Shown here in pieces: positions 29,405 to 39,624 of a DNA stretch of 43,410 nucleotides. Position numbers and translations under genes: made by a program. Under the pieces are notes generated by a model. It worked only from the letters and a program-made list of their open reading frames with translations. It searched no databases and was not told the origin of the DNA. The number at the start of each line of letters is the position of its first letter. Position 1 is the stretch's first letter. The DNA is from an uncultured bacterium (lineage in GTDB: Bacteria; Patescibacteriota; Dojkabacteria; SC72), in the NCBI GenBank assembly GCA_903840015.1, contig CAIMEL010000015.1:1-43410 (forward strand), given 5' to 3'.

Positions 29405-31135
29405 ATGGATAACAGTGTAAGTCAAATCAAGGAGGCTCTAGACATCGTACAAGTGATAGAAGGCTATGTACCATTGAAACAGACAGGAAAGAACTATTCA
29501 GCCAGATGTCCTTTTCATCAAGAAAAAACTCCTTCTTTCATAGTAAGTCCTGACATTCAGAGATACAAATGTTTTGGCTGTGGTGCTTCCGGAGACATTT
29601 TCAATTTTGTACAAAATATTGAGAATATAGACTTCCAAGAAACTCTTGAAAAACTAGCAAAAATGGCTGGGATCGAAATTAAGAGATACGGACCAAATAC
29701 CGTTTTTAAGACTTTCGAAGAAATTAACTACATAGCAACCAAATACTATTACAACGAATTAAAGAAAAATATCAAAGCTTCTAAATATCTTGATGAAAGA
29801 GGTATTAACAAAGATTCAATAAAATCATTTGGACTTGGCTATGCCCCACAGAAACCACACTTACTCCAGAGTTTGATGAACGAAAAAAAATATACACGAA
29901 AAGATCTCCTAAATTCAGGACTCTTTGTAGAGAAAGAAGGTCGCTTAAGAGAAAAATTCTATGACAGAATAATGTTTCCAATTCGATCAAAGAGAGGGAA
30001 AGTAATAGGATTTACGGCACGAGTATTACCTGGAAACGATTGGGGACCGAAATATATGAACACACCCGAGACACCAATCTTCCATAAGAAGGAAAATCTT
30101 TTTGGGCAGTATGAATCTAGGCAAGAAATACGAAAGTCAGATTTGGCAATAATTTGCGAGGGATCCACCGACGTTATCTCTGCACATCAGAATGGAATTA
30201 AAAATATTGTTGCACCGTTGGGAACAAGTTTAACAAAAGAACAATTGCTATCTCTAAAATCTCAAACAAAGAATGTTCTATTCTTTTTCGATAGTGATTC
30301 AGCTGGCAAAGGTGCCCTTCTGAGAGGATTTCTACTAGCATCAGAGTTACAAATGAATCCATATGCTGCAAGCTCCGTACCCTACAAAGATCTAGATGAA
30401 TTACTACAACAGGATGTAACAGCAGCTAAAAAACAAATCGCAACCAGAGCAGAAGCCTTCTCTTTTATTCTCCAAGATTTTCTTGCTGACAGGAATTTGG
30501 AGAAGCTGAAAGATATGGAAGAGCTTAAAAAACTTGTCACAATATTACTCGGGAGTGTAACAGACGAAATAACAAAAAATCATTACATACAGAAGCTAGA
30601 GAAGATTACGAAAATCAGCTACCAGCAAGCAAAAAATGGACACGTGAAAACAAAGCTAGATGCAGAAAGCTCAGAGGGATTTCCTGTGAAAAGGAACAAA
30701 GATATAGTCGAGAGAAGATACATCGGCCTGCTCCTGATAGGCAACAACGAAAAGAGTAAACTGAATATCCCAAGCAAGTATTTTGCAGACAGAGAGTTAA
30801 GAAAAATCTATGAGATAATCTTAAACTTAGGAGATCTGAACCGAGAGGTTCTTTACAAAGAATTAGACAATGAAGAAGAGCTAAGAAATATTTTCGAAGA
30901 TATCATTTTTGAAGCAGATCAAATTCTGACAGACAAAGTGAGTATTACAGATCAACTTGAAAAATGTGCGAAACAGCTCGAAACACGATATTATGAAAGA
31001 AGAAGACAGGCAATCTCGATTAAAATAGCAATGGCAGAAGAGTTGGGCGATAATAAAACATCTGAAAGATTGCTTTTGAAATTGCAGAATATAAACAATA
31101 AGTTAAAAGGAACACATAATGACAAAAATATCTGA
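29405..31135 (+). CDS. dnaG: DNA primase DnaG
   Basis: 576 aa; zinc-binding CPFHQEKTPSFIVSPDIQRYKCFGCGASGD and TOPRIM CEGSTDVIS...FFFDSDSAGKGA. Confidence 0.96.
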   Translation: MDNSVSQIKEALDIVQVIEGYVPLKQTGKNYSARCPFHQEKTPSFIVSPDIQRYKCFGCGASGDIFNFVQNIENIDFQETLEKLAKMAGIEIKRYGPNTVFKTFEEINYIATKYYYNELKKNIKASKYLDERGINKDSIKSFGLGYAPQKPHLLQSLMNEKKYTRKDLLNSGLFVEKEGRLREKFYDRIMFPIRSKRGKVIGFTARVLPGNDWGPKYMNTPETPIFHKKENLFGQYESRQEIRKSDLAIICEGSTDVISAHQNGIKNIVAPLGTSLTKEQLLSLKSQTKNVLFFFDSDSAGKGALLRGFLLASELQMNPYAASSVPYKDLDELLQQDVTAAKKQIATRAEAFSFILQDFLADRNLEKLKDMEELKKLVTILLGSVTDEITKNHYIQKLEKITKISYQQAKNGHVKTKLDAESSEGFPVKRNKDIVERRYIGLLLIGNNEKSKLNIPSKYFADRELRKIYEIILNLGDLNREVLYKELDNEEELRNIFEDIIFEADQILTDKVSITDQLEKCAKQLETRYYERRRQAISIKIAMAEELGDNKTSERLLLKLQNINNKLKGTHNDKNI

Positions 31136-32054
31136 TTATGACATGTTTGATTATGACTACAGAACATATTGGGAGAACCGAGAATATGAAAATATGGCAG
31201 AAAAAATCCTTCTTGAGCGAGTATTCGACAAAACACAAGGGGTTTGGTTTTTAGATATAGGTGGCTCATATGGAAGACTAACATCTACTTACTACAATAG
31301 ATTTAGTAACCCAATAATTCTCGACTATTCACTCAAAACTTTACAGAAAAACAAAGAGATCCTGAAGAGTAAATACAAAAACATCTCCTTAATTGCTGCT
31401 AATGCTTACAATCTACCCTTTGCCCCCAACTCCGTCGATGGGGGATTGATGGTTAGAGTTCTTCATCACATCGAGAAGCCGGCAACATACTTCAAAGAGA
31501 TTGCAAGAGTTATGAAGTATAACTCTCCTTACATACAGGAATTTCCCAATATGATTCATATAAAAGCGTCAATTAGAGAGTTATTAAAGTTTAATTTCAG
31601 CTTTTTCAAGCAAGATTCTTACAAACAGCCGACAAGAAATAATTTTGAAGGAGTAAAAGAGGGAGTTGAGGGCATATTTCTCAACTACCATCCCAAATTC
31701 TTGAACAAAGAGTTAAAGAAACACAATTTTAAAATTACAGAGAGAATCGGTTGCTCTTTCTTGCGTTTACAATTTCTCAAAAAATTCCTAAATGTTGATT
31801 CTATGCTATTTTTAGAAGTTCTAGCACAAAAGGTTCTTTCCTGGACAAATATCTCACCAAGTATCTTTTTGAAAACTTCATCACAAAATCACAAGGATAA
31901 AAAGGAAATATCATACGAAACACTTGAGGATATGCTTGTATGTCCTAAGTGCAAAGAAAAACTTACTTTTCCAAATCCTACTACTGCAGTTTGTAGCAAA
32001 TGCTCCACTTCTTACATAAAGGATCAAGATATTTGGGATTTCAGAGTAAAATAG
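31119..32054 (+). CDS. SAM-dependent methyltransferase with C-terminal Trm112-like zinc ribbon
   Basis: 311 aa; FLDIGGSYGRLTSTY (motif I), NAYNLPFAPNSVDGGLMVRVLHHI; C-terminal LEDMLVCPKCKEKLTF...CSKCSTSYIKDQDIWDFR. Confidence 0.8.
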   Translation: MTKISDYDMFDYDYRTYWENREYENMAEKILLERVFDKTQGVWFLDIGGSYGRLTSTYYNRFSNPIILDYSLKTLQKNKEILKSKYKNISLIAANAYNLPFAPNSVDGGLMVRVLHHIEKPATYFKEIARVMKYNSPYIQEFPNMIHIKASIRELLKFNFSFFKQDSYKQPTRNNFEGVKEGVEGIFLNYHPKFLNKELKKHNFKITERIGCSFLRLQFLKKFLNVDSMLFLEVLAQKVLSWTNISPSIFLKTSSQNHKDKKEISYETLEDMLVCPKCKEKLTFPNPTTAVCSKCSTSYIKDQDIWDFRVK

Positions 32055-32827: not shown

Positions 32828-33301
32828 ATGAAAACTAAAAGCCACAAGAAAAAAGTGGCTGAGGAAAATTTAGTCCAATTAGGTTTAGATATTAAAGAAC
32901 CCCTTAAGAACAAATTCTACAAGATAAAGGGGAAAATAGATTTCATTATTCTTAAATTTGAGGTACGAAAGTTCTTAAAGGATCCTTTTGTATGGGCAAC
33001 AGTCATTATTTCAACAGTAATGATTCTTACACAGCTCTTTCTCATTAGAGATAATTACTCAAACCTTCCATCATATTTGCCCATTTTCAAAACATTTACC
33101 ATTCTTACAAGTAAACTTGTAGAAAAGAGCTATATATTACTATACCCCATAGTGTCCACATTTGTTTTGCTTGTTGGTACTATCGCTGTTTCAAATTACT
33201 ACAATAGAGAGAAATCACTTGTTAAGATCTTGCTTTTTACAATTCTTTTTAACGCTATTGGTCAGAGTATTATTTTAATTGATCTCATAAACTCTTTTTA
33301 A
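32828..33301 (+). CDS. Hypothetical polytopic membrane protein
   Basis: About 157 aa with three hydrophobic segments. ATG at 32828 preferred over TTG 32825 used in the track. Confidence 0.65.
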   Translation: MKTKSHKKKVAEENLVQLGLDIKEPLKNKFYKIKGKIDFIILKFEVRKFLKDPFVWATVIISTVMILTQLFLIRDNYSNLPSYLPIFKTFTILTSKLVEKSYILLYPIVSTFVLLVGTIAVSNYYNREKSLVKILLFTILFNAIGQSIILIDLINSF

Positions 33302-33302
33302 A

Positions 33303-34511
33303 ATGGATATTTCAACATCAACGACCATATTAAATTCACTTTTTAATTTCATTCCACAAACTTTCCAAGGCTCGGTGTATGCAAAATATATTCAATACTG
33401 GCCAATATTGCTAATAGGGATGGTTCTAGCACTGATCTTGACTCCAATTATCGGCCATATAGCGACAAAATATGATATTACATACAAACCGGGCGTAAAG
33501 AGGAAAGATAAAGAATTTGAGAACGAGCAAAAAGCTGTTCACGAAGGAGTTACACCTGCTCTTGGAGGATTAGCCCTGACAATACCCGCCCTGATCGCTA
33601 TACTTGTATTTTTCAGGCTGGATAGTTTTACCTTACCTTTAGTTTTAGCTCTTTCCATTTTAATTATTGGCACTGCATTGGATGATATTTTTAATCTTCC
33701 AGCCAAAATTCAATTTGGATATCAGCTACTAGCAGCTTCAATAATTGCTTTTTCCGCTATTAATTTAACCAATCTATCACTCTTCAATCTGCCATTAGAC
33801 TCGTACGTATGGAATTTCTCAATACTGGGACTTCAACAATCTCTTGCATTACCTGGAGACATACTGTTGATATTTTGGATTTTGGTTTGTATAAACGCAG
33901 TAAAGTGGACTGCAGGCTCCCCCGGAATTATAGAAGCTAATTCCCTCATTATCTTTGCATTAATCTTTGTTATTGCAATAAGGTCAACCTCGCTTTTCTC
34001 TGGTACACTAAGTATTTTGATGGCTGGTGGACTTCTCGTATTCCTAATATTTGCATTCCCTCCTCAAAAGATAATGACAGGCTCATCTGGAAAAACCATA
34101 TATGGATTACTCATCTGTGTATTAGCCCTGATAGCTGATTCCAAATTTTCGACAACAATTATGCTCCTTGCATTGCCCGTTATTGATTTTGCATATGTAA
34201 TAATCAAAAGATTCATTATTTACAAACCAAAAAATCTAATCGAATTGATAAGGATAAGCGATACCAATCATATTCATCACCAACTTCTAAAGTTAAACCT
34301 TAATAGGAAGCAGGTTGTTCTAATAGAAACTGCAATCACTCTCTTCTTGGGATCATTCGCGGTCCTAAGTACTGGAGCTTTAAGATTCTTTGCCATCATA
34401 TTGGCATTAGCATTATGTATTGCTTTCATCGTGTATATAAATATACGAGCATCACAAAGAAAATTTACAGATAAAAAGGGAGAATCTCCCGAATCCAAAT
34501 ATTCATACTAA
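33303..34511 (+). CDS. MraY/WecA-family (polyprenyl-P sugar-1-P transferase-like) membrane protein, motif-degenerate
   Basis: 402 aa polytopic; GTALDDIFNLPAK (DD motif) and DTNHIHHQLL (HIHH motif) conserved; NxxNxxDGxDG replaced by NAVKWTAGSPG. Confidence 0.8.
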   Translation: MDISTSTTILNSLFNFIPQTFQGSVYAKYIQYWPILLIGMVLALILTPIIGHIATKYDITYKPGVKRKDKEFENEQKAVHEGVTPALGGLALTIPALIAILVFFRLDSFTLPLVLALSILIIGTALDDIFNLPAKIQFGYQLLAASIIAFSAINLTNLSLFNLPLDSYVWNFSILGLQQSLALPGDILLIFWILVCINAVKWTAGSPGIIEANSLIIFALIFVIAIRSTSLFSGTLSILMAGGLLVFLIFAFPPQKIMTGSSGKTIYGLLICVLALIADSKFSTTIMLLALPVIDFAYVIIKRFIIYKPKNLIELIRISDTNHIHHQLLKLNLNRKQVVLIETAITLFLGSFAVLSTGALRFFAIILALALCIAFIVYINIRASQRKFTDKKGESPESKYSY

Positions 34512-34549
34512 AATAGACAAATGCAGTACTTCTCCATATAATAGAGCGT

Positions 34550-35194
34550 ATGAAAGAAAATAAAACTGCCTTGCTTGTCCTAGCTTTCGTGGTGTTGCTA
34601 TCACTTTTCTTCTTTTTTGTACCACTAGACAGCATTATCGGAAGAATCCCCTTAATCAGCAGATTTTACAACAACACAACACTAGAGATAGTCACACAGA
34701 GAGGTAAAGCAAAAATATGGGTAGACGGGAAAGATTATGGAGAGACCCCATCTAAGATAGAAAACCTCCCAGAAGGAAAATATTTGGTAGAGATTGAAAA
34801 GATTGTAGAAAACGATTCTTTCTACAAAAAGCACGCATTTCAGATAGAACTAACTAAAAATACATCAGCTCGTATTGATTTGGAGATAGGGCCGGAGGAT
34901 TCCCTACAAGGATCTATCCTTTACTATACCCCTAGCAAAGTATCCTCTGAGGGTGGATTCTTAACTGTAACTAGTAATACAGAGGATGCAAAAATATATA
35001 TAGATAAAGAGTTTGTAAAACGTACTCCTGTAACAAATATACCTTTGAAGAGTAATCAGTATGAAGTAAAGGTTACATCACAAGGATATGAGAACGTCGA
35101 AATCCCCATCTTAATAAGGGATGGCTATCAATTAAATCTAAAAACATATCATTTTCCAATTCCAGTAATATTTGAAGGTGCAAACAATGAGTAA
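34550..35194 (+). CDS. Membrane-anchored PEGA-domain protein (two repeats)
   Basis: 214 aa; N-terminal TM, GKAKIWVDGKDYGETPSKIENLPEGKYLVEIEK and TEDAKIYIDKEFVKRTPVTNIPLKSNQYEVKVTSQGY. Confidence 0.85.
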   Translation: MKENKTALLVLAFVVLLSLFFFFVPLDSIIGRIPLISRFYNNTTLEIVTQRGKAKIWVDGKDYGETPSKIENLPEGKYLVEIEKIVENDSFYKKHAFQIELTKNTSARIDLEIGPEDSLQGSILYYTPSKVSSEGGFLTVTSNTEDAKIYIDKEFVKRTPVTNIPLKSNQYEVKVTSQGYENVEIPILIRDGYQLNLKTYHFPIPVIFEGANNE

Positions 35195-38186
35195 TTTAAG
35201 ATTAAATAAAATTAAACCACAAACTCCAATCTCCATCATCGTCCATGGAGGTAATAGGCTTGGATATCTAACAGCTAAAACACTCATAGAGCAAGGCTGC
35301 TATGTAATCATAATAGACAAATTTGATAGCACAACAAAAAAATATATTTCAGAACTTAAGAAATCAGAATTATTTGATTTCTTTGATTTCAAAGGATATT
35401 CCTCACTCTTTAAAAATATCAAAAGATTTGACTATCTCTTCTACCTCCTAAACGAGACCTTAACACAGCAACAATTTGATAGTAAAGAATTCCTTGCGCA
35501 CACTAAATATTTAGAAGAAAGTCTTACCAATACAAAAAAGAACAAGGCTAAGTTTGCTCTTGTAACATCTCTTGCATTAAACAGAGAGCTTGCGAACAGA
35601 GTAAACAACACAAAACTTGCACTACCTTCACCATATTCAAATATAGAGCTACAAAAATACTGTGAGACATTAACCGCTGAATTCAAGGACAAAACAGATA
35701 TAAATGTAAGAATTTTAAGAATAGGCACAATAGTTGGCAAAGGAGTAGAGAAGGTATCTTCTCCAACAATCGATTCTATGCTTCAAGATGCAACACAAAG
35801 GGCTCAAATCACCATAAATGGCGAAGGCTTAGATATTCATAACATAATCCACGAAACGGATGCCACATACGGGATATTAAAATTGACTTTTCTTGAAAGA
35901 ACAAAGGGGGAGGTAATTACTCTTGCAAATGAGAATAATTACACAACACTCTCTTTGGCATACAAACTTCTAGAACTAAATACAGAAGCACAAAGCATAC
36001 GATTTCTTGAAGACAAAAATCAAAAATTCTTAATACAAGACCTCTATGTACCAGCTCCTCATGCAACAAGATATGACTGGATTCAACAGGTATCGCTTGA
36101 GGATGCTCTAATTGAGCAACTACATACTTACTATGATCAGATAAATAAAGCGTGGGATATAGATGGGAACCTGGATAGCAAGAAAGAGAAGAAGGAAAAC
36201 ATAAAAACAACAAAAACAGATTTAGGGCAATTCTTAGCAGATTTGGTTAATCCCATAAGAGTGATCATTAAAAAGGCTTTTGAGAAGAAACCAAAACCCT
36301 CAAGTTTCCTTAAAACACTGGCTATTCTAGCCTCTGTTGCAATAGCAACATATTTCTTAATCTACCCCTTAATTGGAACAGCTCTTGGACTGACAATTGT
36401 AAATTCCTCTGCAAAAACTCTCTCCAATTCTTTTACTAACCTCGAGGACAATTCCTCACAGGTGGCAATCCAAAGGATAGAGAAGAATATAGATAGAATT
36501 TCAGACAACATAGGAACACTTAACTGGATATTCTACATAACAGGGCAAAAAGATTTCTACAACAACATTTCACAATTGATACTAGGCACACAGTACACGA
36601 TTGATGGTGCACAAGAGCTTTTGAATGCAACATATCCACTTGCACAATATATAAAGAACTTTGAACCAGCTGTAACATTTCAATCTGCTACAGCAACCTC
36701 AACAAGAGAATATCGAGAATATTTGGAGCTGATGGAAGACAATAAGTACAAGCTAGATGAAGCCTCATACAAGATATCCCTAGCATCGGAAATCATAAAT
36801 CAACTCAACACAAACTCGTTTCCCAAATTCTTACAGGATAAAGTCCTGGAAATAAAAGAGCTCATAACAAAAGTACAAGGAGGAACACAAACTTTTAAAG
36901 AGGCAATCCGATTCCTTCCAGATGTTCTTGGTGTTGATGGAAGAAAGAGATATTTAATACTCTTCCAAAATGAATCCGAATTGCGAAGTACTGGTGGATG
37001 GTTAACAAGCTACGGCATTATCGGTATCGAAGGTGGGCAAATTAGAGAAATTTTCGTTGATGATATATACAACGTAGAAGGGACATTAAGGACACAAGGT
37101 AAAAGATATACCCCTCCAAGATCGATGTCTAATGCTCTTGAGCTTAAGGAGTGGCCATTCTCTCTTGTAAACTGGTCTCCCGATCTCTCTGAAACACACA
37201 TGGCCTCAGAGCAATATATTCGTGACCTAGGTAAAGGCAACACATTAGATGGAATCATAACTATTGATATCTCCGTTGTTCAGAAGCTGTTAGACAAATG
37301 GGAAGGAATTGAGGTTCCAGGAGAAACTCAATTAATCACTAGTGAGAATATATACAGCAAGATCTTTGATATGCATAGAGAATTTTCACCCGGTTCTTCT
37401 GCCAAGTCGACATTCTTAGCAAATCTAGCAAACGAAATGGTAAAGAAGCTACTCTCGTTAAAAATAACTGAATTGATGGATCTACAAGATGTTTTACAAG
37501 AATCCTTAGATGAAAAACATTTACAAATTAACTTACGGAATACAGATGCTCTCAATTTCTTCTCCTCTAGAAATTGGGCTGGAACATTAGATTCGAAGTA
37601 TAATGATTCTCCATTGGCAATCGATTGGAATTGGGGTGGTAACAAAGCAAATCTTTACATAGACAAAAGCTACAACCTATCCATAGATGTTAAGGATACA
37701 GATACCATAGATTTTACATATAGTATATCTGCAGAAAATAACTCCAATAGTAATACATATCCAGAGGGTGACTACATAAACTATCAGAGGATATATATAC
37801 CCTCCGATGCAAAGATTCTACGAATCTCAGGGATCAAAGATAATGAGTATGATATCTATCGTGAAAGCGGATTTAAGGTAATAGGAGGTTGGTTCAACAT
37901 CCCAATAAAAACTACTGCTACCTTAGAGATTTCATATCGACTAGAAAGAGATTCAAACAACAAAAATTTCCCTATCCAGATAGAAGACAGTACTGTTTTC
38001 TTTGACGTAAATATTTTCAAACAAGCAGGGGAGAAGAAACATGCGTATGTATTGGATATAAACTATCCTTCGACATGGGTTCTAGACAATCCTGGAGGAT
38101 TAAACAGCATTAGTAGTCAACTCTCAAGTAGATTTGAACTGGCAAAAGATATTGAATTCCCAATTGTCTTAAAAATACCGAATTAA
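35187..38186 (+). CDS. Fusion protein: N-terminal SDR/NAD-epimerase-like domain, TM, extracellular DUF4012 domain
   Basis: About 999 aa from ATG 35187 (MSNLRLNK; upstream GAAGGTG SD-like). SDR-like ISIIVHGGNRLGYLTAKTL...PSPYSNIELQKYCE; TM FLKTLAILASVAIATYFLIYPLIG; DUF4012-like YLILFQNESELRSTGGWLTSYGIIGIEGGQI. Confidence 0.85.
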   Translation: MSNLRLNKIKPQTPISIIVHGGNRLGYLTAKTLIEQGCYVIIIDKFDSTTKKYISELKKSELFDFFDFKGYSSLFKNIKRFDYLFYLLNETLTQQQFDSKEFLAHTKYLEESLTNTKKNKAKFALVTSLALNRELANRVNNTKLALPSPYSNIELQKYCETLTAEFKDKTDINVRILRIGTIVGKGVEKVSSPTIDSMLQDATQRAQITINGEGLDIHNIIHETDATYGILKLTFLERTKGEVITLANENNYTTLSLAYKLLELNTEAQSIRFLEDKNQKFLIQDLYVPAPHATRYDWIQQVSLEDALIEQLHTYYDQINKAWDIDGNLDSKKEKKENIKTTKTDLGQFLADLVNPIRVIIKKAFEKKPKPSSFLKTLAILASVAIATYFLIYPLIGTALGLTIVNSSAKTLSNSFTNLEDNSSQVAIQRIEKNIDRISDNIGTLNWIFYITGQKDFYNNISQLILGTQYTIDGAQELLNATYPLAQYIKNFEPAVTFQSATATSTREYREYLELMEDNKYKLDEASYKISLASEIINQLNTNSFPKFLQDKVLEIKELITKVQGGTQTFKEAIRFLPDVLGVDGRKRYLILFQNESELRSTGGWLTSYGIIGIEGGQIREIFVDDIYNVEGTLRTQGKRYTPPRSMSNALELKEWPFSLVNWSPDLSETHMASEQYIRDLGKGNTLDGIITIDISVVQKLLDKWEGIEVPGETQLITSENIYSKIFDMHREFSPGSSAKSTFLANLANEMVKKLLSLKITELMDLQDVLQESLDEKHLQINLRNTDALNFFSSRNWAGTLDSKYNDSPLAIDWNWGGNKANLYIDKSYNLSIDVKDTDTIDFTYSISAENNSNSNTYPEGDYINYQRIYIPSDAKILRISGIKDNEYDIYRESGFKVIGGWFNIPIKTTATLEISYRLERDSNNKNFPIQIEDSTVFFDVNIFKQAGEKKHAYVLDINYPSTWVLDNPGGLNSISSQLSSRFELAKDIEFPIVLKIPN

Positions 38187-38518
38187 AGGATAACTTTACT
38201 TCTCTTCTTCATATCTACATACAGATCCAAGATGTTTTGTAGTGACAAAACCTCTTTCTTAGAAAACTTACGAATCTCATCTATACCTAAATCGGTATTT
38301 ATTGGGACTCTGCTACTCATTCCCATGTTGGAAGAAACATATGATGCTATATGCTTTGATTTACAAATGTGACATGAGAAGTGTATAATGGCAGATGCTC
38401 CGGAGCTTTGGAGTATGTTAAGATCATCTAGGGAGTATGCGTTACCACATTTGTCACAGAATTTTGCAATCGAATCTAAATAAAACTGCTTTTTCTCTAT
38501 TACATTAATATTGTCCAT
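38183..38518 (-). CDS. Small zinc-ribbon-like hypothetical protein
   Basis: About 111 aa from ATG 38518 (MDNINVIEKKQF); CDKC...CHIC. Shorter start preferred because the track start at 38566 lies inside rpoD. Confidence 0.6.
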   Translation of the reverse strand: MDNINVIEKKQFYLDSIAKFCDKCGNAYSLDDLNILQSSGASAIIHFSCHICKSKHIASYVSSNMGMSSRVPINTDLGIDEIRKFSKKEVLSLQNILDLYVDMKKRSKVIL

Positions 38519-38544
38519 AATATAAATTATATCATAATCCATAT

Positions 38545-39624
38545 ATGACAAATAAAAGTAAAGCAATTGCTTATTTAGTCAAGAAAGGTAAAGAACAAGG
38601 CTTCTTAACACAAGAAGATTTACTTGATGTCTTTCCTACCATAGAGGAAGAGATCGAATTGTTAGATGAAATATTTGAGAAGTTACAAGAGAACGAGATT
38701 GAGGTCCTAGAACCTGAAGAGAATTTGGAAACGGTCTCAAAGGAAGAGCTTACCCTTGAAAATAAGATAAAGATCTTGAAAACTATTCAAACCAACCTCT
38801 CAACAGATGCAATCAGATCATATCTTTATGAAATCGGAAGAATACCTCTCTTAAATGGAGAAGAGGAAATTATCCTTGCAAAAAGAATAGAGAATGGTGA
38901 TTCCGAAGCAGGGCAGCTACTCATTACAGCAAACTTAAGATTAGTTGTAAGTATTGCGAAGAAATACAGTAAAAGCAATTTGGAACTACTTGATCTTATC
39001 CAAGAAGGAAATATTGGACTAATGAGAGCAGTAGAGAAGTTTGACTATACAAAAGGCTTCAAATTTTCCACCTATGCTACTTGGTGGATTAGACAAGCAA
39101 TTACCAGAGCAATTGCCGACCAAGCAAGAACAATACGAGTACCTGTACATATGATTGAAACCATCAATAAATTCAACAAAGTTAGCAATACTTTAGCAAC
39201 AAAGCTTGGTAGACCTGCAACAGACGAGGAAATAGCTAAAGAAATGGATGTAGAAATTGAAAAGATAGCAGAAATTAAAAAGATCAAACAGAATCCAACT
39301 TCTTTGGCAACCCCAATAGGGGAGGAGAAAGACAGTAAACTACAAGATATAATCCCTGATGATTGGTCTCAATCTCCAGAAGAATATGCAACTAGTGAAT
39401 ACTTAAAGAATCAACTTCATGATATCTTGGACACACTCCAAGACAGAGAGAGAAGGGTACTAACATTGAGGTTTGGTCTGGATGATGGTGTTTCCAGAAC
39501 ATTGGAGGAAGTAGGAAGAGAGTTCGGTGTTACAAGAGAAAGAATTAGACAGATAGAGGCAAAGGCATTAAAGAGACTCAAAGAGAAATCGTCACAACAG
39601 AAGCTCAGTGACTATATTGATTAA
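38545..39624 (+). CDS. rpoD: Primary sigma factor (RpoD/SigA)
   Basis: 359 aa; [57 protein letters not shown], region 4 [25 protein letters not shown]. Confidence 0.98.

Follow-up and report, generated by a model that had tools for sequence, protein, structure and literature searches.

A conserved gene block of Dojkabacteria encoding a PNPT-fold protein with replaced catalytic motifs, a PEGA protein and an SDR::DUF4012 fusion

The gene block and its setting

Here, we describe four consecutive plus-strand genes, g1 to g4, from a member of Dojkabacteria, two of whose products, the PNPT-fold (WecA/MraY-like) protein g2 and the short-chain dehydrogenase/reductase (SDR) part of the fusion protein g4, are probably non-catalytic, with good support from their sequences. 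The stretch analysed, hereafter the window, comprises the 43,410 nucleotides of contig CAIMEL010000015.1, which is contig C15 of G000, a Dojkabacteria (WS6) genome of 680,604 bases in 25 contigs that is 96.6% complete. An original prediction, made from the letters of the window, had proposed a small membrane protein, a WecA/MraY-like protein lacking DGxDG, a two-repeat PEGA protein and a fusion of DUF4012 with an SDR lacking its catalytic lysine. All four open reading frames (ORFs) were confirmed in the window, with the domains supported by Pfam, and both motif losses are real; a second loss in g2, that of the Mg2+-binding aspartate, had been missed, and the glycine motif of the SDR is altered too.

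The synthesis of many lipid-linked glycans is initiated by PNPT enzymes, one of which, MraY, is a target of antibiotics with three aspartate residues that are regarded as critical. If non-catalytic, the g2 clade would offer a natural experiment on the roles of this fold besides catalysis, with the fold and the carrier-side residues retained throughout the history of a class, other active-site residues fixed and a C-terminal tag added. The new findings reported here are this invariant tail, a similarity of DUF4012 to LytR-CpsA-Psr (LCP) ligases and a degenerate MraY in the dcw cluster of the same genome.

In the window, dnaG, a methyltransferase gene and ksgA are followed by g1 to g4 and then by a minus-strand gene for a small Cys4 protein and sigA. 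The four genes co-occur in relatives, with the arrangement dnaG-MTase-ksgA-g1-g2-g3-g4-znr-sigA retained throughout the family and the order. At greater distance within the class, the block is split into two cassettes, g1+g2 and g3+g4 (PEGA and SDR::DUF4012), which lie at different places, and few families stand behind two of the class-level links; in G007 the g3-g4 cassette has the inverted orientation. A pair of cassettes, joined only in Dojkabacteria, is a more fitting description than a single block.

The first gene, g1 (32828-33301; coordinates are those of the window and on the plus strand unless stated otherwise), encodes a small membrane protein of 157 amino acids with three hydrophobic helices, judged by eye, for which no Pfam family was matched. 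It adjoins g2 across much of the class (hidden Markov model E 1e-4 to 1e-25). At its N-terminus, predicted to be cytoplasmic, it has the motif Q-[LIM]-x-[LMF]-x-[ILF]-[KR], which reads QLxLGxK in the window (32828-32900), and the glutamine is invariant among 34 members with identity as low as 13%.

A PNPT-fold protein with a replaced active site

The protein encoded by g2 (33303-34511) matches Glycos_transf_4 (PF00953, E 7.8e-15), and its AlphaFold model (pLDDT 87.7) gives Foldseek matches to MraY/DPAGT1 structures (E 1.7e-8). Relatives of g2 are present in 58 of the 60 genomes of the comparison set, which ranges from genus to class level, and a maximum-likelihood tree places all tested g2 (34/34) in one clade (100/100), apart from the MraY and WecA sequences that these genomes also encode.

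The essential residues of BsMraY are D98, D99, K116, N171, D174, D231, H289 and H290, with D98 acting on the carrier lipid (PMC5039524), and D265 of AaMraY, the equivalent of BsMraY D231, coordinates Mg2+ (PMC6606608). From this set, g2 is altered at N171, D174 and D231. The pair corresponding to D98/D99, on the side of the carrier-lipid phosphate, is kept (33681-33686, within DDIFN); in the 58 sequences compared, i.e. the window and 57 relatives, D98 is present throughout and D99 in 55. The comparison with relatives likewise shows the HIHH (HxHH) motif to be kept (34269-34280). The NxxNxxDGxDG motif is replaced (33894-33926), with NAVKWTAGSPG aligned to NAVNLTDGLDG of MraY: the D174 site, the first aspartate of DGxDG, holds aspartate in 1/58, the N171 site has become lysine in 47/58, and the D177 site, part of the uracil pocket, is proline in 27/58. 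Replaced as well is GDxGS, now GSSGK (34080-34094), where the Mg2+ aspartate (D231 site) is found in 0/58, with glutamate in one sequence, and the last position, formerly serine, is lysine in 45/58.

The replaced residues are themselves conserved among relatives down to 25-30% identity, and the open frames are intact, with 44-75% identity across genera. Since the replacements in g2 and in the SDR domain of g4 are conserved across the order and class, the losses are old and maintained. Thus, g2 shares with the PNPT superfamily (MraY, WecA/TagO, DPAGT1) the fold, DDxxN, HxHH and the order of the loops, but differs in lacking the Mg2+ aspartate and the first aspartate of DGxDG, in its extra C-terminal tail and in its separate clade.

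An invariant C-terminal tail

The g2 protein ends in SPESKYSY immediately before the stop codon (34485-34511), a tail that is predicted to be cytoplasmic and is conserved in order-level proteins. The C-terminus has the form [ST]PE-x-[KR][YF][SA]Y, mostly SPESKYSY-COOH, in all complete order-level g2 (38/38), and whereas the last 8 residues are 89% pairwise identical, the preceding 16 are only 20% identical. Searched as a DNA pattern, the tail gives a single match in every one of 43/60 genomes, and this match invariably falls on the g2 terminus; the reversed control pattern has 0 matches in the same 60 genomes; a shared sorting signal is rejected because of this single match. The peptide is fixed while its codons vary synonymously, and therefore selection acts on the peptide. 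Our literature search found no publication on it.

When the helices of the g2 model are counted from the cytoplasmic active-site loops, the tail would fall in the cytoplasm, where the N-terminal motif of g1 and the SDR domain of g4 would lie as well. We regard the tail as a likely docking tag. Among the class genomes, the PEGA/SDR-DUF4012 cassette is found in 9/9 with a strong or weak tail vs 2/8 without one, weakly supporting a link between the tail and g4 that is only suggestive when counted by family.

The PEGA protein and the SDR::DUF4012 fusion

The g3 protein (34550-35194) consists of an N-terminal hydrophobic anchor and two PEGA repeats (PF08308, E 1.1e-21, in two stretches; profile score 76.9 bits, above the gathering score), and its gene adjoins g4 across the class. 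It resembles PEGA-domain surface proteins in having these repeats on an N-terminal anchor and differs from them as the fixed partner of SDR::DUF4012.

The g4 protein (35187-38186) has 999 amino acids, with its probable start at ATG 35187, although a TTG upstream at 35172 also exists. Based on Pfam and the structure model (pLDDT 83.7, pTM 0.62), an SDR domain is followed by a transmembrane helix, a helical stalk, a DUF4012 core and a beta-rich C-terminal domain, and the SDR and DUF4012 parts form a single ORF in 34/34 loci that have both. Foldseek matches to the whole fusion are dominated by the SDR, the Pfam Epimerase model matches 29/34 family members, and the family profile matches UDP-sugar epimerases/decarboxylases (E 4e-14). 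The active site reads Y-S-N-I-E (35634-35648), with glutamate in place of the catalytic lysine, and YxxxE instead of YxxxK is the rule among relatives: nearly all of those at order level have it, as do most at class level. The dinucleotide motif GxxGxxG is altered to GGNRLG and is variable among relatives. The domain is thus like the extended SDR epimerases (UDP-glucuronate decarboxylase, UDP-galactose 4-epimerase) in fold and overall sequence but unlike them in these two motifs and in the fused membrane anchor and DUF4012.

DUF4012 is common in Patescibacteria and in Gram-positive envelopes and, to our knowledge, has no known function. In g4 its core lies at 36936-37355 (PF13196, E 1.2e-17; 65.2 bits vs a gathering score of 28). 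The domain has been catalogued as the candidate phyla radiation family fam000574 (PMC6744442), and in Bifidobacterium it is located between the priming transferase and wzz (PMC5412050). With the DUF4012 protein of the Bifidobacterium longum exopolysaccharide cluster, g4 shares the domain itself and the envelope-glycan context; it differs by its N-terminal pseudo-SDR and its PEGA neighbour.

Relatives of g4 also gave a lead, not a proof, that the DUF4012 core is remotely akin to LCP glycopolymer ligases, a link that was no part of the original prediction. An hhalign comparison of the DUF4012 profile with the genomes' own LCP proteins gave a score of 34.1 (P 3.5e-4), with 11 unrelated profiles and a reversed profile at <=22.9 and 60 column shuffles at <=21. 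Against all PDB sequences, the top three of four matches were 3nro, 3owq and 3qfi (E 0.011-0.018), which we take to be LCP proteins. The likeness lies in a beta-alpha 'GGV' segment and is weak but specific. Our literature search found no publication on DUF4012 together with LCP. These results provide a first hint that DUF4012 belongs with the LCP ligases, and a partner set for the domain that can be tested.

The second PNPT protein and carrier-lipid genes

The G000 genome has one other PNPT protein, the MraY of the dcw cluster (about 104559-105587 of contig C4; L061:6560-7588), where it is accompanied by murA, murF, mraZ, mraW and ftsI, assigned by reading, and also by ftsW and murG. In this MraY, TDGADG and HHH are retained, but D-D has become D-V, glutamate occupies the N171 position and GDxGS reads GGPGA, with the Mg2+ aspartate lost. 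The same degenerate form occurs in 15 other family genomes that were read and in G038 (L191-L203, L205, L208, L209), while MraY is intact in G014, G017 and G024 of the family and in relatives elsewhere in the order and class. A second, intact WecA/MraY serving as the working copy was looked for in G000 and not found; of the family genomes read, only the three just named have one. The genome G038, which is placed in a different family of the order, has the degenerate MraY (L209) and no g2, DUF4012 or LCP; transfer, misplacement and a mixed bin are possible alternatives for this case.

Undecaprenyl pyrophosphate synthase (UppS, PF01255) was not found in G000 or in most family genomes, and full-length UppS is present in scattered relatives, which looks like repeated loss or gain. 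Loss of UppS is rejected as the cause of the change in MraY, since G006 and G009 have UppS together with the degenerate MraY. A single monotopic phosphoglycosyltransferase, accompanied by two GT4 genes, is also encoded in G000, as is a single LCP protein, whose gene neighbours yceG.

Given such an MraY, it can be asked, and tested directly, by what route these symbionts build their peptidoglycan. Because both PNPT proteins of G000 lack the Mg2+ aspartate, the family might produce its lipid-linked wall precursors with no canonical PNPT metal site, by an MraY with a relocated acidic ligand (the glutamate at N171) or by a composite enzyme of a new kind formed by g2, g1 and MraY, although we consider this unlikely.

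Proposed role and alternative explanations

We propose that g1 to g4 encode a module of the cell envelope, conserved in Dojkabacteria and in Patescibacteria related to them. As the aspartate pair and histidines facing the polyprenyl phosphate are kept, and the Mg2+ ligand and the uridine-adjacent aspartate lost, g2 is probably a PNPT-fold pseudo-transferase that would bind, but not synthesise, a polyprenyl-(pyro)phosphate carrier or glycan, with g1 as its constant small membrane partner. The g2 tail would serve as the docking site for a protein in the cytosol, for which the pseudo-SDR domain of g4 is the likeliest candidate, and g4 would span the membrane from that domain to an extracytoplasmic, LCP-related DUF4012, with g3 contributing wall-side PEGA domains. 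Such a module may take up a lipid-linked glycan and then position it on the surface, attach it there or gate it. The specific role, handing over or gating the glycan, is put forward tentatively, as a reading that is plausible yet somewhat short of probable. The membrane assembly binding lipid-linked sugars that had originally been predicted fits the kept and lost residues, but two cassettes describe the genes better than one unit. Of the two outcomes named beforehand as refuting that prediction, absence of co-occurrence in relatives and intact catalytic motifs in relatives, neither was observed. The sequence does not distinguish between a sensor, a scaffold and an organiser.

Several observations weigh against this proposal. 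The two cassettes lie apart in most class genomes, and therefore a joint complex is not required. The link between the tail and the g3-g4 cassette has p 0.002 when counted by genome but only 0.067 by family, and the tail, the SDR tyrosine or the whole of DUF4012 is missing from a few members of the class. The similarity between DUF4012 and LCP is short (47-66 columns) and below the usual hhalign significance (37%); the catalytic Asp/Arg motifs of the LCP ligases (DT, PRD) are not recognisable in the DUF4012 alignment, an apparent difference between the two groups, but the N-terminal half could not be aligned to LCP.

Alternatively, g2 might be an active phosphoglycosyltransferase of unusual chemistry, in which the lysines K201 and K264 replace the Mg2+/nucleotide contacts and another donor is used. 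The strong conservation of these lysines at the N171 site and the former GDxGS end would fit this, as would the retention of the normally catalytic DD and HxHH, and the MraY of G000, which is also without the Mg2+ aspartate, suggests that the lineage may tolerate such active sites. However, the residues lost from g2, D231/D265 and D174, are essential in the MraY proteins studied (PMC5039524, PMC6606608), and proline is frequent at the uracil-pocket position, which makes activity improbable.

Equally improbable, in our judgement, is that g2 and g1 form a polyprenyl-phosphate translocase or carrier-recycling protein derived from a PNPT. A protein of this kind could do without the nucleotide and metal sites while keeping the carrier side, and could need a constant small membrane partner; with UppS missing from most family genomes, the carrier lipid may indeed be scavenged. 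Yet the g2 model is simply MraY-like, and we saw nothing that links it genetically to UppP or UppS.

We give still less credence to g2 as a partner of the dcw MraY, either in a heteromer or as a regulator pair for lipid I, in which each protein holds a partial catalytic set. The two are the only PNPT proteins of G000 and both are degenerate, g2 keeping DD and the dcw MraY keeping DGxDG, and MraY is known to be a dimer (PMC5039524). The Mg2+ aspartate, however, is in neither protein, their genes lie on different contigs, and relatives with an intact MraY have a g2 that is just as degenerate, so g2 did not arise as a complement. Finally, chance or the ordinary decay of genes, conceivable for motif losses within a 680-kb genome, is refuted by the intact frames with their identity across genera, the conserved replacements and the tail peptide that stays fixed under varying synonymous codons.

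Neighbouring genes

The class I methyltransferase with a C-terminal Cys cluster (31119-32054; Methyltransf_11, E 1.5e-13) precedes ksgA-g1-g2 in the window and follows g2 in the distant loci L047, L053 and L059. It adjoins g2 in G043, G050 and G056, where g3/g4 are elsewhere or were not found. An apparent giant ORF beside g2 in G015 (L066) is rejected as an artefact of N runs. The gene for the small Cys4, zinc-ribbon-like protein (38183-38566, minus strand) adjoins g2 in G046, G052, G058, G049 and G055, and the protein accompanies g2 in other families (L045, L046, L048, L058, L060). In several families, the class-level g2 has the methyltransferase or the Cys4 gene as its neighbour. In G047, g1-g2 is immediately preceded by a distinct gene for a true LCP protein, and in G053 such a gene is close by.

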